DNA of 47,870 nucleotides from Candidatus Schekmanbacteria bacterium (GTDB lineage: Bacteria; CSSED10-310; JACPHN01): contig JACPHN010000026.1 of assembly GCA_016188575.1 (NCBI GenBank), forward strand, positions 1-47,870, written 5' to 3'. The number at the start of each line of letters is the position of its first letter. The stretch's first letter is position 1. The notes beneath the pieces are model-generated. The model was not told the DNA's origin and did not search any database. It saw nothing but the letters and a program-made list of their open reading frames with translations. Both the position numbers and the translations under genes were made by a program. This document shows, piece after piece, positions 17,847-27,522 of the stretch.

Positions 17847-18947
17847 TCAGGCCGCCTGCTTGCCGACCTTGATCGTCATGCCGGGCAACAGCAGCCGTCG
17901 CCGCGGCCGCTCCGGGGCGAACAGTTGGAGCGGGTCCGGGGCCAGGCTGAGCTCCATCTGTTGCTGCGATCCGGCGGCGTCGCCCGCCATCTGGAAGGGC
18001 ATCGGGCGGGAGGCGACGACGTGAACGCGATCGACGAGAAAGTCGGTCAGCGCCGGCGAGGCGAACGTGCCGTTCCAGACCGACCGGAGGTTCACGAGGG
18101 CGTGCGGGACACCGCCGGAGTAGAGGCGCAGGTGAAAACGATCCGTCAGGCTCGTGGCGTACGGAAAGAGGCGGAATCCGTATCCATAATATGGAGTTGT
18201 CGAGGCGGCGGCGATCTGCATGGGACCTTCATAGAGGGTTTCGCCGGGCGCGAACGAGCGCACGATGCGCCCGCCGGCACCGACCTGGTGCGCCGGGCCA
18301 CCGGTGTTGATCACGCTCACCCACGTCGGGTCGTGCCGGAGTCGCCATTCACGGGGAGCGGTGACCAGCAGGCTTGCGAGCAGATAACCGCTGAGGCCGG
18401 TCAGCAGCGGGCGCAGCGGACCATCCTGGTAGCGCTCGCGCAGGCTGATATAGTCGTTCAGAATTGCACCGTCCCAACCGATACCCACGAACGGGACGTC
18501 GCGGCCGTTGGCGCTGATGAGGTTGAGTGAGGTGCGCCGGCACGGCTGGCCGTCGCGCACCCAGCGCAGATCGCCGACGGGAGAGCCCGAGCCGATGTGG
18601 TAGGCGAGCGCATTGCCGGTGCCCATCTTGAGAATACCCAGGGCCGGGCCGGACGCGGGGGCGGCGCCGGTGGCGGCAATGCCGCGCCGGATGCGATTGG
18701 CGAAGTCGACGATGGTGCCGTCGCCGCCTCCGGCGAGAACCAGCCGGATCCGGCGTCGCAGCACGGTATCGACAATCTCCTGGGCTTCCAGCAGCGATCG
18801 CGACAGGAACAGATTGGCGCTTGGCACCGAGCGTTTGATGCGCCGCACCAGGCGTCCCGTGCAGCCGCGGGCATTGACGTTCAGCACGACGGCGAGGTCG
18901 CGCCGCGGGTCGTCTGCGATCGAGGGAACCAGGATCTCGGCGTTCAT
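17847..18947 (-). CDS. Diacylglycerol-kinase-type lipid kinase (DAGK catalytic domain)
   Basis: This is a 366-residue protein. The DAGK catalytic fold is shown by LAVVLNVNARG at the N-terminus, the ATP-binding motif LVLAGGGDGTIVDFANRI, and LGILKMGTGNALAYH. The C-terminal half is beta-rich and fits the second lobe of YegS/DgkB-like enzymes, with a final acidic/basic tail. The expected reaction is ATP-dependent phosphorylation of a lipid or sphingoid alcohol at the inner membrane; the substrate is unknown. I start at ATG 18947 because GGAG lies 9 bases upstream and because the sigma-54 promoter at 18999-19015 predicts a transcript start near 18988. That makes the possible longer start at 18989 unusable. 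The gene converges on the second kinase with a 46-bp gap. Confidence 0.88.
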   Translation of the reverse strand: MNAEILVPSIADDPRRDLAVVLNVNARGCTGRLVRRIKRSVPSANLFLSRSLLEAQEIVDTVLRRRIRLVLAGGGDGTIVDFANRIRRGIAATGAAPASGPALGILKMGTGNALAYHIGSGSPVGDLRWVRDGQPCRRTSLNLISANGRDVPFVGIGWDGAILNDYISLRERYQDGPLRPLLTGLSGYLLASLLVTAPREWRLRHDPTWVSVINTGGPAHQVGAGGRIVRSFAPGETLYEGPMQIAAASTTPYYGYGFRLFPYATSLTDRFHLRLYSGGVPHALVNLRSVWNGTFASPALTDFLVDRVHVVASRPMPFQMAGDAAGSQQQMELSLAPDPLQLFAPERPRRRLLLPGMTIKVGKQAA

Positions 18948-18998
18948 GGTGGAATCTCCGCGTGCAATATCGGTGTCAACGGACGGCACCCGCTATTT

Positions 18999-19015
18999 TG
19001 CAAAATCTGTGCCAA
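18999..19015 (-). promoter_or_regulatory. Sigma-54 (-24/-12) promoter of the lipid kinase gene
   Basis: Read on the minus strand the site is TTGGCACAGATTTTGCA. It has the GG-N10-GC spacing and matches the RpoN consensus TTGGCAC-N5-TTGCW at every invariant position. Transcription would start near 18988, about 41 bp before ATG 18947. The element is embedded in an imperfect palindrome with arms CTATTTTG and CAAAATAG. The window also encodes a sigma-54 activator (23881-25299), but whether that one acts here is unknown. Confidence 0.8.
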
Positions 19016-19025
19016 AATAGGAGCC

Positions 19026-19065
19026 GTCAAGTGCTGGGCGGAAAGAGCGCCACCAAGCGCTTGAC
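19026..19065. promoter_or_regulatory. Inverted repeat upstream of sigma-54 promoter, candidate activator site
   Basis: Arms GTCAAGTGCT (19026-19035) and AGCGCTTGAC (19056-19065) pair at 9 of 10 positions around a 20-bp spacer. They are centred about 57 bp upstream of the predicted start of the lipid-kinase transcript. Bacterial enhancer-binding proteins bind such dyads. The spacing is closer than the common -80 to -150, so the role is a hypothesis. Confidence 0.45.
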
Positions 19066-19284
19066 TCCCAGAACCCAGCGCCCCCTGCCATGCGGCGCGT
19101 AATCAGGTTCGCGGCTCCACCTCACCAGCCGCGTAACCCCCTTCGCAGGTCCGTTCCGCCCCTGGATGCCATGATCCTGACTTTGGTCATTGCCCGATTC
19201 CGTTGGCCGTTCCGATGGGGTGAATTGAGGGGCGAAGAAAGATGGCGCCGGCAGAATGTCCGGTTTCGTCCTTTGCACTTCTTG

Positions 19285-19478
19285 GGGGCGCGATTCACCC
19301 ACGGGTTGCGCAACGCCTGCCACGCGCCGCCAAAGGCGACAGCTTACAGTTCTCCCACGGCGAGTTGCCCGCTCGGGACACCTTTCGACAAGGATTTCGC
19401 GCCTCCGCCACGGCCTCAGGTCGCTCCACCAAGCGAATCTGCCGCTCGTTGCGCAACCCGTGGGATTCATCGCGCCCC
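19285..19478. repeat. MITE-like 194-bp unit with ~31-bp terminal inverted repeats
   Basis: The left end (19285-19315) begins GGGGCGCGAT and ends CCCACGGGTTGCGCAACG. The right end (19447-19478) is its reverse complement: CGTTGCGCAACCCGTGGG, then ATTC, then ATCGCGCCCC. The outer 10 bp and inner 18 bp are perfect; only the 3-4 bp between them differ. The 131-bp interior codes for nothing recognisable. The size and TIR layout fit a miniature inverted-repeat element or a large structured repeat. I see no clear target-site duplication. Confidence 0.55.
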
Positions 19479-19527
19479 AATGCCGGGCCGGGGATCATCG
19501 GGCCGGGAATGATCCGCCCCGATTGCC

Positions 19528-19573
19528 GGCCGCGATGACCGGGCGCGACAAAACGCGCCCGGTCATCGCGGCC
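19528..19573. repeat. Perfect 20-bp inverted repeat with 6-nt loop
   Basis: The left arm GGCCGCGATGACCGGGCGCG (19528-19547) is an exact reverse complement of 19554-19573, separated by ACAAAA. No T-run follows on either side, so it is not a standard intrinsic terminator. It is the third consecutive dyad within 290 bp (19285-19478, 19490-19520, 19528-19573). It could be a REP-like palindrome, a recombination site or a structured RNA element. Confidence 0.7.
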
Positions 19574-19659
19574 TCGGGTGTAAACCACATTCTGCCGGCG
19601 CCCAAACACGGCCGGTAGGGCGCCGCGAGTGCCGGTCGCCGGCGGTCTACCTTGCCGAG

Positions 19660-19779
19660 GGTGCAAGGTCTGCTTGCGGGGGGTGCAGCGGGGGAGCGCG
19701 GCGGGTGGGGGCGAAAGGCGATGGCTGGGCCATCGGGGCGGGGGAAAAAGGGCGTGCCGGGGTGCAACGTTTGCTTGCG
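19660..19779. repeat. Pair of 19-bp direct repeats about 100 bp apart
   Basis: GGTGCAAGGTCTGCTTGCG (19660-19678) and GGTGCAACGTTTGCTTGCG (19761-19779) agree at 17 of 19 positions, and a TGCCG motif precedes both. They lie in the gene-free stretch upstream of the RHS remnant. The function is unknown; they may mark an old duplication or insertion boundary. Confidence 0.45.
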
Positions 19780-20048
19780 CCTCGGCTTCACTTACTTTTA
19801 CCTGGACGCGGTCGTACGCGCGTGCGATCCTGAGCATGGGGCGCGAGGAATCGCGCCGCTTTGCCCGCGGGTCCGCCGCGGCCGCGTGCAGCCGGCGGTG
19901 GGCGAAATACCCAGGCGCGAGAGCTCGAGATGGCGGTCGCAATTCAGGAAAGTTGGCCCGAGACCCCGTTCGTACCACGTCACCGGCGGCCGGCGCGGCA
20001 CGCCGCGCGCGTCGGAGCAGACGCCGGTCCGGCCGCCGGAGCCCGGAT

Positions 20049-22769: not shown

Positions 22770-23822
<1,053 letters not shown>

Positions 23823-23880
23823 TCAGGCGCGCCGTATCGCAACACGCCCCGCTGCTTCCGACAGCCGGGCGTGGGCAGAA

Positions 23881-25299
23881 TCAATCGTCTTTCCGCAGTC
23901 CATATTCTTTCATTTTCATTTGCAGGCTCTTGCGCGAAATGCCGAGCTTGCGCGCAGCCTGCGTCACGTTGCCACCCGTCTCGGCCAGCGCCCGGTCGAT
24001 CCATTGTCGCTCCACCCAGCGCGTTTGCCGCCGAATTGCATCTTTCAACGTCGACTCGTCCACCTCGCCGCCAACTTCGTCATCAGCCGCGGCGCCTGCC
24101 GGCGCACCGATCAGCCTGCTGTCGCGCCGCCATTCATCCGCTAGCCCGCGCAGCTCGTCCACGTCTATGGTGTCCGACCGACATAGCAGCATCGCGCGCT
24201 CAACGAGATTCTCCAGTTCCCGGATGTTGCCGGGCCAGTCATACGCCATCAGAATGTCGATCGCGGCTTCGGAAACCCGAGACACGCCCTTTCCCAGCCG
24301 TTCCCGATACTTGCCAAGAAAATAGTCGAGGAGCAGCGGAATGTCGGGGCGGCGATCACGCAGGGGGGGCAACCTGATCGGCACAACGTTAAGCCGATAA
24401 TATAGGTCTTTGCGGAAGTTTCCAAGCTCGACCTCGTCGGCCAGCTCCTTGTTGGTCGCACACACCAGGCGGACGTCGACGCGCACGGTCTTTACCCCGC
24501 CGACGCGCTCGAACTCCTGGTTCTGAAGGCAGCGCAAGAGCTTGACCTGGATCTCCTTCGGCACCTCGCCGATCTCGTCCAGAAACAGGGTTCCGCCGTC
24601 GGCGAGCTCGAAGCGGCCGGGCTTGTCGGTGATGGCGCCGGTGAAGGCGCCGCGCATGTGTCCAAAAAGCTCGCTTTCCAGCAACGTCTCGGGGATGGCG
24701 GCGCAGTTGATCGGCACGAATGGCCGTTCGCGCCGCGACGACAGCCGGTGGATCGCCTCGGCAACGAGCTCCTTTCCCGTCCCGGTCTCACCGGTGATCA
24801 GCACCGTCGAGGGGCTGTCGGCGACCCGGTCGATGACGTCATAGATCTCCCGCATCGGCGCCGAGTCACCGATGATGCGGTAGCGATTGCCGCTGTCCTC
24901 GAGATGGACCTCCTGGCGCGCCGCGTGGTAGCTGCGGATGGCTTTTTCCAGAGCCAGGCGGATGGCGTCGGCCTCGAATGGCTTGGTGATGAAATCGAAT
25001 GCGCCTTTCTTCATCGCTTCCACCGCCGCCTCGACCGTGCCGTGGGCGGTGATGATGATCACGGGGAGATTGCGATTGAGCGCGCGGCACGCGTCGAATA
25101 CTTCCATGCCTCCGGCCCGCGGCATCCGCAAGTCGGTGACGACTACTTCAAATGGGCGCGAGCGCAACATCTCGATCGCCTCGAGCCCATCCGCGGCCGG
25201 AGTCACCTCGTAGCCCTCGCGCCGGAGAATCGCCTCCAGGACGCGGCGCATGTTCGCTTCGTCGTCGGCTACGAGCACGTGTCGCTTCGCGCTGCTCAT
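23881..25299 (-). CDS. Sigma-54-dependent NtrC-family response regulator
   Basis: This is a 472-residue activator. Residues 1-120 are a receiver domain (acidic pair D12/D13, phosphoacceptor Asp56 in VVVTDLRMP, Lys106 in ITKPF). Residues 145-380 are an AAA+ sigma-54 activation domain with Walker A GETGTGKE (170-177), the sigma-54 contact loop GAFTGA (217-222), Walker B GTLFLDEIGEV, and NIRELENLVERAML. The C-terminus is a Fis-type helix-turn-helix (NVTQAARKLGISRKSLQMKM). It activates RpoN promoters when phosphorylated by the histidine kinase whose gene overlaps it by 4 bp (ATGA). The target genes are unknown; the lipid-kinase promoter in this window is one candidate. Confidence 0.95.
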   Translation of the reverse strand: MSSAKRHVLVADDEANMRRVLEAILRREGYEVTPAADGLEAIEMLRSRPFEVVVTDLRMPRAGGMEVFDACRALNRNLPVIIITAHGTVEAAVEAMKKGAFDFITKPFEADAIRLALEKAIRSYHAARQEVHLEDSGNRYRIIGDSAPMREIYDVIDRVADSPSTVLITGETGTGKELVAEAIHRLSSRRERPFVPINCAAIPETLLESELFGHMRGAFTGAITDKPGRFELADGGTLFLDEIGEVPKEIQVKLLRCLQNQEFERVGGVKTVRVDVRLVCATNKELADEVELGNFRKDLYYRLNVVPIRLPPLRDRRPDIPLLLDYFLGKYRERLGKGVSRVSEAAIDILMAYDWPGNIRELENLVERAMLLCRSDTIDVDELRGLADEWRRDSRLIGAPAGAAADDEVGGEVDESTLKDAIRRQTRWVERQWIDRALAETGGNVTQAARKLGISRKSLQMKMKEYGLRKDD

Positions 25300-27368
25300 G
25301 ACTGTTGCCTCCGATCCCGACCTTCTACTGCTCCCGCGCCGCCCCGCTGGCGGTCCGCCGGCATCGCGCCCCCGCCCCCAGGCAGGATCACGACAAACGT
25401 TGTCCCGTGCCCCTCGCGACTTCGCACCTGGATCCGGCCCCCGTGCGCCGCGACAATCCTGTCGACGATCGCCAGCCCCATGCCGGTTCCTCGCTCTTTC
25501 GTCGTAAAGAACGGATCAAATATGCGCTTGAGCTGGGCCTGATCCATGCCGGTGCCGGAGTCTTCTATCACCACGCGCACGCTGCCTCCAGACCCCACCG
25601 CGTCGAGCCGCACCCGCAGCGTACCGCCCCCTGGCATTGCCTGCGCCGCGTTCTGAAAGAGGTTGAGCAAGGCCTGCTCCAGGGAATCCTCATGGAGCGC
25701 TACGTTCGGCAGGTCGTCCGCGAAGTCCAGCTCCAGATGCAACCCTTTCGCCTCCAGCTCGATCAGGCGCAATGCCCGGCGCACCACGTCCTCGATCCGC
25801 GCCGGCACCAGCTCCAGCTTTCTCGGCCGCGCTACCTCGAGGAACAGGGAAACCACCTTGTTGAGCCGATTCACCTCTTCGACGATGATATCCAGAAACT
25901 CCCGCGTCTCCTCCGGCGACGCCCCCGCCACCAGATACTGCGCCGCCGCCTTCATGGCGCCCAGCGGATTGCGGATCTCGTGGGCCAGACTCGTGGCGAG
26001 CTCTCCCAGGGAGGCGAGCCGGTCCCGCGCGCGAATGCGCTCGTACAAGCGCGCATGCTCGATGCTCTGCGCCACCTGCCGGACGACGGCTTCCAGCGCC
26101 CCGACGTCGGCCTTGGTCAACCCCGACAGCTCACCGAGCTGCACGTACAGGTGCCCATACACCGCTCCCTGAAACACCAGAGGAAACGCGTAATCGCTCG
26201 ACAGGATGGTCAGCGTCCGGGTTACCGCCCGCAATGTCTTGCGAGCGCGAAGGTTGCGCGCCGTCAGGATCTGACGCTCCAGACTGTCCCGCGAAATCGG
26301 CTCCGGCCGCGATTCCAGATACTGCACCGCCGGCTTGCCGCGCTCCAGCCGCTCGATCCGCGGCCGCTCGGAAACGATCGGGAAGAGCTGCAAGTCGTCG
26401 CCCTCCTCGGGCGCCCAGTAGAGCAACGCGCGCTTGATTTTGGTCGTCTCGTGCAAAGCCTCGAGCACCATGGCGAACAACGTCGGCAGGTCGATCACCG
26501 AAAGCATCTCCCGCGAGAGCCTCACCATGCGCCGTTGCAGTTGAAAAGGATCGCGGCGCAAGCGCGCCAGGCTCACGTCCGCGAGCTTGCGCAGGGGTTC
26601 GTAGAAGCCCACCAGCAAGAGCGTCGCGAGCGCCATGACCAGCACCTCCGGCCCGGGCGGATTGCCCCACAGCGCGCCCAGCCCCCGGTACGCAACCCAC
26701 AGGCCGAAGATCGTCAGGAACACCACGATGCCGCGGCCAAGGGCGTCGTCCAGATTGAAGAGCTGTCTGCCGGCGACGGCGCGACCAAACAGCAAGGCAC
26801 CCACCAACATCGCCGGTACCGTGAGGTCCAACCACCAGCTCAACGCCGAACCGAATGGGCTCAATACGGCCGCGGCAGCCAGCACGCCGATGATCTTGAT
26901 GAGGTCGCGGATCTGCGCCCGCTCCAGCCGCGAGTAGCTGCGGCGCTGGCGGCGCACCAGCACCAGCAGCGCCAGGGTTATCGGCGGCGCGGAGCAGCCG
27001 AGCACGATCAGCTCGGCAACCATCCCGGGCGGTCGCCAGATCGTCAGATACGCCCCGCCGGCCGCGCACGCTGCCGACACCACGGCGAACGCCCGCGCAT
27101 CCCATCGCCGCCGGCTGCGCGTGAACCTCACCATGAAGAAGAGCAGCGCGGGCCCTGCGGCAAGGCGCGTCAGCCAAAGCGCCGGCAAAAGCACCGCGGC
27201 GTCCGCGATGCGCACGAACACGTGCAGCCAACTACCGGCCGCGCCGATCGCGGTCAGCACGACAAAGGACGGAAACGAGGAGCGCGTCCGCGGACTCAGA
27301 CCGACATAGGCGCAAATCACCGTCGCCAGCAACATGAAGGCGAGCGAGCTCTGGACGGAAAAATCCAT
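25296..27368 (-). CDS. Membrane sensor histidine kinase with GAF-like domain (PrsK-like architecture)
   Basis: With a start at ATG 27368 the protein is 690 residues; the frame extends to 27515, but a promoter at 27494-27522 argues against starting there. About eight hydrophobic segments fill the first 270 residues (SLAFMLLATVICAYVGL ... GIVVFLTIFGLWVAYRG, PEVLVMALATLLLVGFY). A GAF-like sensor region covers about 320-440 (LFAMVLEALHETTKIKRALL). The dimerisation domain carries the phosphoacceptor His463 in LAHEIRNPLGAMK. The ATPase domain shows N, G1 and G2 boxes (FQNAAQAMPGGG, DSGTGMD, GTGMGLAIVDRIV). The layout resembles PrsK of PEP-CTERM/exosortase systems, which is paired with a sigma-54 regulator; that resemblance rests on architecture only. 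Confidence 0.88.
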   Translation of the reverse strand: MDFSVQSSLAFMLLATVICAYVGLSPRTRSSFPSFVVLTAIGAAGSWLHVFVRIADAAVLLPALWLTRLAAGPALLFFMVRFTRSRRRWDARAFAVVSAACAAGGAYLTIWRPPGMVAELIVLGCSAPPITLALLVLVRRQRRSYSRLERAQIRDLIKIIGVLAAAAVLSPFGSALSWWLDLTVPAMLVGALLFGRAVAGRQLFNLDDALGRGIVVFLTIFGLWVAYRGLGALWGNPPGPEVLVMALATLLLVGFYEPLRKLADVSLARLRRDPFQLQRRMVRLSREMLSVIDLPTLFAMVLEALHETTKIKRALLYWAPEEGDDLQLFPIVSERPRIERLERGKPAVQYLESRPEPISRDSLERQILTARNLRARKTLRAVTRTLTILSSDYAFPLVFQGAVYGHLYVQLGELSGLTKADVGALEAVVRQVAQSIEHARLYERIRARDRLASLGELATSLAHEIRNPLGAMKAAAQYLVAGASPEETREFLDIIVEEVNRLNKVVSLFLEVARPRKLELVPARIEDVVRRALRLIELEAKGLHLELDFADDLPNVALHEDSLEQALLNLFQNAAQAMPGGGTLRVRLDAVGSGGSVRVVIEDSGTGMDQAQLKRIFDPFFTTKERGTGMGLAIVDRIVAAHGGRIQVRSREGHGTTFVVILPGGGGAMPADRQRGGAGAVEGRDRRQQS

Positions 27369-27493
27369 GGCGCGAACCGAACAGTCGACCGGCTCGTCTC
27401 GAAGTCGTGGGACAGCGCACCGGCACCGCTCGGCTACTCCCCGCCGAGCCGTCGCGGTGGCCATGCCGAGCATTGGCGATAAGACGCGCTCCC

Positions 27494-27522
27494 ACAGTAC
27501 GGAGATTGCGCGCAATTGTCAA
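27494..27522 (-). promoter_or_regulatory. Sigma-70-type promoter of the histidine kinase / mre gene cluster
   Basis: On the minus strand TTGACA (27522-27517) is followed by a 17-bp spacer and TACTGT (27499-27494). The spacer contains the perfect 12-bp palindrome ATTGCGCGCAAT, a possible repressor site. The predicted start of transcription is near 27487. Confidence 0.55.

Follow-up and report, generated by a model that had tools for sequence, protein, structure and literature searches.

What controls the lipid kinase gene at 17847-18947, and does the NtrC-family regulator encoded 5 kb away act on it? Both genes lie in the 47.9-kb window, by which we mean the whole stretch of DNA analysed, and the answer turns on the following features:

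17847..18947, minus strand: lipid kinase of the DAGK/YegS/sphingosine-kinase superfamily, 366 aa, ATG start, GGAG ribosome-binding site
18999..19015, minus strand: predicted -24/-12 sigma-54 promoter element TTGGCACAGATTTTGCA, recognized by sequence and orthologue conservation
19026..19065: imperfect dyad, arms 19026-19035 and 19056-19065, GTCAAGTGCT / AGCGCTTGAC
19096..19113, minus strand: proximal palindrome copy CGCGAACCTGATTACGCG (gene sense), starting 98 bp upstream of the -24 box
19130..19147, minus strand: distal palindrome copy TGCGAAGGGGGTTACGCG (gene sense), starting 132 bp upstream of the -24 box
23881..25299, minus strand: AtoC/ZraR-like NtrC-family response regulator with receiver, AAA+ and Fis-type HTH domains

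The kinase, which has a DAGK_cat domain (PF00781, 6.8e-10) with GGGDG and GTGN motifs invariant across 22 kinase orthologues, belongs to the lipid kinase superfamily. Its predicted structure (mean pLDDT 88.9) adopts the two-domain fold and matches SphK1 (2.8e-16), YegS (1.3e-14) and DgkB (1.8e-14) in Foldseek. Because the protein reaches the curated cut-off of no NCBIfam lipid kinase model, its substrate may be diacylglycerol, a sphingoid base or another compound.

Ahead of this gene, the minus strand carries GG (19013-19012) and GC (19001-19000) with a spacer of exactly 10 nt, in a sequence close to the consensus TTGGCACG-N4-TTGCW, bearing out the near-consensus RpoN site reported in the initial annotation. 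The element also agrees with the Geobacter sulfurreducens RpoN consensus TTGGCACGGTTTTTGCT (PMC2725144). Taking C19000 as -12, transcription is predicted to start at ~18988, giving a leader that contains the ribosome-binding site and spans the 41 nt previously proposed between transcript start and the ATG at 18947. An in-frame GTG at 18989 adjoins the predicted transcript start and need not be invoked as a start codon, since the orthologue alignment begins at the ATG. Across both strands of the window, TTGGCACAGATTTTGCA is the sole site scoring ≥0.9 on the weighted consensus, TGGCACN5TTGCA has no second exact match, and a sigma-70 promoter scan of 18800-19800 returned no candidate. A second sigma-54-like sequence, TTGACACCGATATTGCA, lies at 18963-18979, 36 nt downstream of the main element, with GA replacing GG at -24, and a perfect 8-bp inverted repeat (CTATTTTG / CAAAATAG) flanks the -24/-12 element at 18993-19020.

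The source genome (9.2 Mb in 275 contigs) encodes a single RpoN, detected as one PF04552 match (3.7e-63). Exact copies of TGGCACN5TTGCA occur 15 times genome-wide, a 3-fold enrichment over the five copies of the reversed pattern. For about 11 of the 15, a start codon preceded by a ribosome-binding site follows 39-102 nt downstream, so the exact motif marks real promoters in this organism. Several of the other exact sites (L008-L022) precede genes for proteins with signal-peptide-like N-termini, which suggests that RpoN may have a wide envelope or secretion role here. One Myxococcota genome (G153) contains two matches to the RpoN DNA-binding domain on contig C1, at 2078499-2078975 and 3093913-3094383, one of them clearly divergent.

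Comparison of eight genomes of the window's phylum and 193 of Myxococcota revealed how far the promoter travels with the kinase. Within the window's phylum, the kinase is present, besides the window's own, in G002 only (37% identical), where CTGGCATCGTTTTTGCG lies 48 nt ahead of the kinase ATG. A kinase relative is present in 174 of the 193 Myxococcota genomes, and almost all of the best 30 Myxococcota loci place a -24/-12 site at a similar position. Conservation of this site in orthologous loci, a check suggested in the initial annotation, is thus seen in G002 and in most Myxococcota families tested, ~50 nt ahead of the start. L055-like loci and L023 share CTGGCAAGCGTCATGCT 52 nt before the ATG, while the elements of L066 and L040 are GTGGCACCGCGCTTGCT and GTGGCACGAGACGTGCA, respectively. 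The site is absent at L007, a second kinase copy in G035, and at L005, from another phylum; of 30 genomes, one (73% complete) gave no rpoN match, and its kinase has no such site.

Alignment of the orthologue promoters unravelled a second conserved element, an 18-bp palindrome, YGCGWA-N6-TWCGCR; in most orthologues it begins 89-141 bp before the -24 box. The G002 copy, TGCGAAACAGATTACGCG, is located 113 bp upstream of its sigma-54 site. Myxococcaceae differ: their full palindrome sits 189-243 bp upstream, and the copy at 125 bp is degenerate. Sites of enhancer-binding proteins (EBPs) typically lie 80-150 bp upstream (PMC7910581), a range that accommodates both window copies, at 98 and 132 bp, as predicted EBP-type sites. 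The palindrome occurs 15 times in the window's genome, compared with eight for the reversed control, and a convincing sigma-54 site stands at enhancer distance from the two kinase copies only; the other 13 fall within open frames, mostly long ones, and have none there. Promoter and palindrome are both present in 22 of 36 representative orthologues picked for breadth, covering at least 13 families, and in 7 of 7,200 dinucleotide shuffles of the same regions; with score thresholds fixed after viewing the sequences and related genomes non-independent, this ratio is indicative, though the gap is nonetheless large. About a third of the 36 representatives lack one or both elements, though rpoN is present in most of those genomes. 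On sequence grounds, there is strong support for the lipid kinase being under sigma-54 control.

The combination of palindrome and sigma-54 site extends to other genes. Across the 193 Myxococcota genomes, the combined pattern occurs at 32 places, compared with three for the reversed pattern: 20 are at the lipid kinase, two at pssA and four at a small-protein gene. In the eight genomes of the window's phylum, it marks only the kinase promoters of G000 and G002, the two genomes with the gene, apart from one match within an open reading frame of G000. The pssA product is CDP-diacylglycerol-serine phosphatidyltransferase (phosphatidylserine synthase; TIGR00473, above cut-off), and direct inspection of pssA promoters at 32 loci identified the module in G073, G086 and G062. 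G086 and G062 have no kinase relative, and the G073 kinase (L084) lacks both elements; the module is missing in front of pssA in both the window's own genome and G002. The small protein (64-79 aa, no Pfam match) is encoded at L141, L146, L147, L131 and L197, where it heads a gap cluster and is preceded by a sigma-54 site and the palindrome, in two copies at L141, L146 and L147. It is followed by gap, pgk and tpiA at L197 and by gap at L131, with gap and pgk of L197 assigned by position and size, and tpiA and the L131 gap by sequence. An apparent GAFTGA motif near the L197 small-protein gene proved to be triosephosphate isomerase. From these distributions we infer a new predicted sigma-54 regulon centred on membrane-lipid synthesis; since the module stands before either the kinase or pssA, its purpose would be membrane lipid supply.

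Symmetric palindromes are also bound by many repressors, and EBP binding here is a prediction; the palindrome could thus serve an ordinary repressor as its operator, or else some other activator, for instance a lipid-responsive one, with sigma-54 using a different enhancer. This reading is unlikely: most orthologues keep the palindrome 89-141 bp from the -24 box and several promoters have it in pairs, an arrangement common for EBP sites but uncommon for a repressor, and the palindrome accompanies sigma-54 sites at unrelated genes.

The initial annotation had proposed that the promoter acts together with a 10-bp inverted repeat just upstream of it. The repeat is present at 19026-19065, but its arms pair at only 9 of 10 positions (extended 16-nt arms are 81% complementary). 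Because simple shuffling of its 75-nt region also yields a 9/10 inverted repeat in 4 of 300 trials, the dyad alone is only mildly unusual. The search for it upstream of orthologues, also suggested earlier, found it absent, and its half-site GTCAAGYGCTKGG, allowing up to one mismatch, is not enriched genome-wide (50 places versus 60 for the reversed control). The dyad was therefore rejected as an enhancer, being unconserved in orthologues and unenriched in its half-site, and the role of controlling activator site proposed for it is not supported; a different, deeply conserved palindrome farther upstream holds the usual enhancer position. The most likely conserved candidate enhancer is the palindrome pair at 19096-19147. 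Separately, about 15 of 26 orthologues carry a TGACG(C) element immediately 5' of the -24 box; its window counterpart, TTGACGGC (19018-19030), is overlapped by the proximal arm of the dyad. This element may be functional.

The regulator at 23881-25299 forms a cluster at 22770-27515 with a histidine kinase (25296-27515) and MreB, conserved across the window's phylum. As first described, an NtrC-family activator and its kinase are indeed encoded 5 kb from the lipid kinase, and the regulator's domain set proves complete. The link drawn from this activator to the promoter fared worse. It would have the AtoC-like regulator, phosphorylated by the kinase at 25296-27515, bind the dyad at 19026-19065 and activate the promoter; a complete NtrC-family regulator only 5 kb off and the presence of the dyad speak for it. 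However, besides the dyad's lack of conservation, the EBP-MreB cluster (with the histidine kinase in most, and an MreB 72-75% identical across the phylum) is kept in G001, G002, G003, G004 and G007, although G001, G003, G004 and G007 have neither the lipid kinase nor the enhancer-promoter module. Regulator orthologues exist in 11 of 11 genomes tested, and kinase and regulator are unlinked in other genomes, lying 327 kb apart in G123. Around the regulator orthologues there is no palindrome and no strong sigma-54 site, except for a single one, scoring 0.91, at the L127 edge. Co-occurrence in relatives and dyad conservation thus both fail to tie the kinase to this EBP. Since the presence of the regulator does not track that of the module, the 5-kb proximity is no evidence, and we consider this link improbable, rejecting the regulator as activator on co-occurrence (four relatives have it without kinase and module). 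The closeness of the two genes is probably incidental, and the activator is probably a regulator other than 23881-25299; none of the kinase, pssA and small-protein loci examined has an EBP gene as a neighbour.

In Myxococcota, a divergent dnaK is found 290-560 bp upstream of the kinase at L072, L080, L066, L023, L071, L073-L075, L081, L082, L088 and L089, an arrangement not seen in the window or G002. With dnaK as the divergent neighbour in many Myxococcota, the upstream elements might be a heat-shock promoter of dnaK and not belong to the kinase. This is very improbable, as the elements are kept without a dnaK neighbour in the window, G002, L076, L078, L079, L085 and L086, and the -24/-12 element is oriented toward the kinase. 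That a near-consensus -24/-12 sequence arose here by chance is scarcely credible, for although partial matches are plentiful in GC-rich genomes and a 2-mismatch pattern is unenriched in the window, the spacing is perfect, the site is conserved in orthologues, an enhancer stands at a consistent distance, and the shuffles seldom reproduce the pair.

We therefore return to sigma-54 control through the palindrome pair, and consider it highly probable that the kinase is read from the sigma-54 promoter with an EBP at the twin palindromes, the module being kept with the kinase across the window's phylum and Myxococcota and probably having lipid supply as its output. RpoN-RNA polymerase would bind 19015-18999 and remain closed, the promoter sequence predicting RpoN-dependence in vivo. 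A putative EBP would occupy the two palindrome copies at 19096-19113 and 19130-19147, as their spacing and conservation suggest, reach the polymerase via DNA looping and, upon a presumed signal, activate transcription by ATP hydrolysis. In some lineages, the module would instead or also drive pssA or the small-protein/gap-pgk-tpi operon. The physiological output is probably membrane phospholipid supply, through the phosphatidic acid or phosphatidylserine branch.

Sigma-54 is dispensable in most bacteria. Myxococcus xanthus is among the very few in which rpoN is essential, for reasons unknown (PMC2725144; PMC12316311), and given this essentiality the kinase and pssA promoters are a concrete candidate for a vital sigma-54 target. 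A broader and rather unlikely proposal is that an ancestral regulon, built from YGCGWA-N6-TWCGCR and one undescribed EBP, would control a committed step in phospholipid synthesis in Myxococcota and the neighbouring phylum, switching between kinase and pssA by lineage, with its output being a reason for that essentiality. The retention of promoter and enhancer before the same kinase in two phyla points to an unrecognised membrane lipid control circuit, for which the palindrome motif provides a handle for tracing the activator. Sigma-54 control of a DAGK-type enzyme was earlier called unusual, a description to be qualified for Myxococcota, where it is the rule for the kinase gene; our search of the open-access literature found no report of a sigma-54-controlled lipid kinase or pssA in myxobacteria, nor of the regulon or its motif.

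Several known systems frame this proposed circuit. From gene context, Francke et al. 2011 (PMC3162934) predicted that sigma-54 generally serves the bacterial exterior, including phospholipid and envelope synthesis; diacylglycerol and lipid kinases go unmentioned in that text. With the YegS/DgkB/sphingosine kinase superfamily (PF00781), the window kinase shares the DAGK_cat domain, the GGGDG and GTGN motifs and, in the model, the fold, whereas it represents a divergent family whose members, in this analysis, come mostly from Myxococcota and the window's phylum. The HsfA/HsfB phosphorelay of M. xanthus, which includes the EBP of the heat-shock gene lonD (PMC9109919), is a Myxococcota EBP two-component system, and dnaK lies beside the kinase in many Myxococcota; unlike that setting, the window and G002 kinases have no dnaK neighbour. 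The closest parallel in layout is offered by NtrC-family EBP-activated sigma-54 promoters such as the Nla28 targets of M. xanthus (PMC9765219, PMC7910581), which share the GG-N10-GC element, a short leader, paired EBP-type sites ~80-150 bp upstream, and a genome with rpoN and many EBPs. The Nla28 half-site is CT(C/G)CG(C/G)AG, whereas the module described here combines the 18-bp palindrome YGCGWA-N6-TWCGCR with membrane-lipid gene targets.
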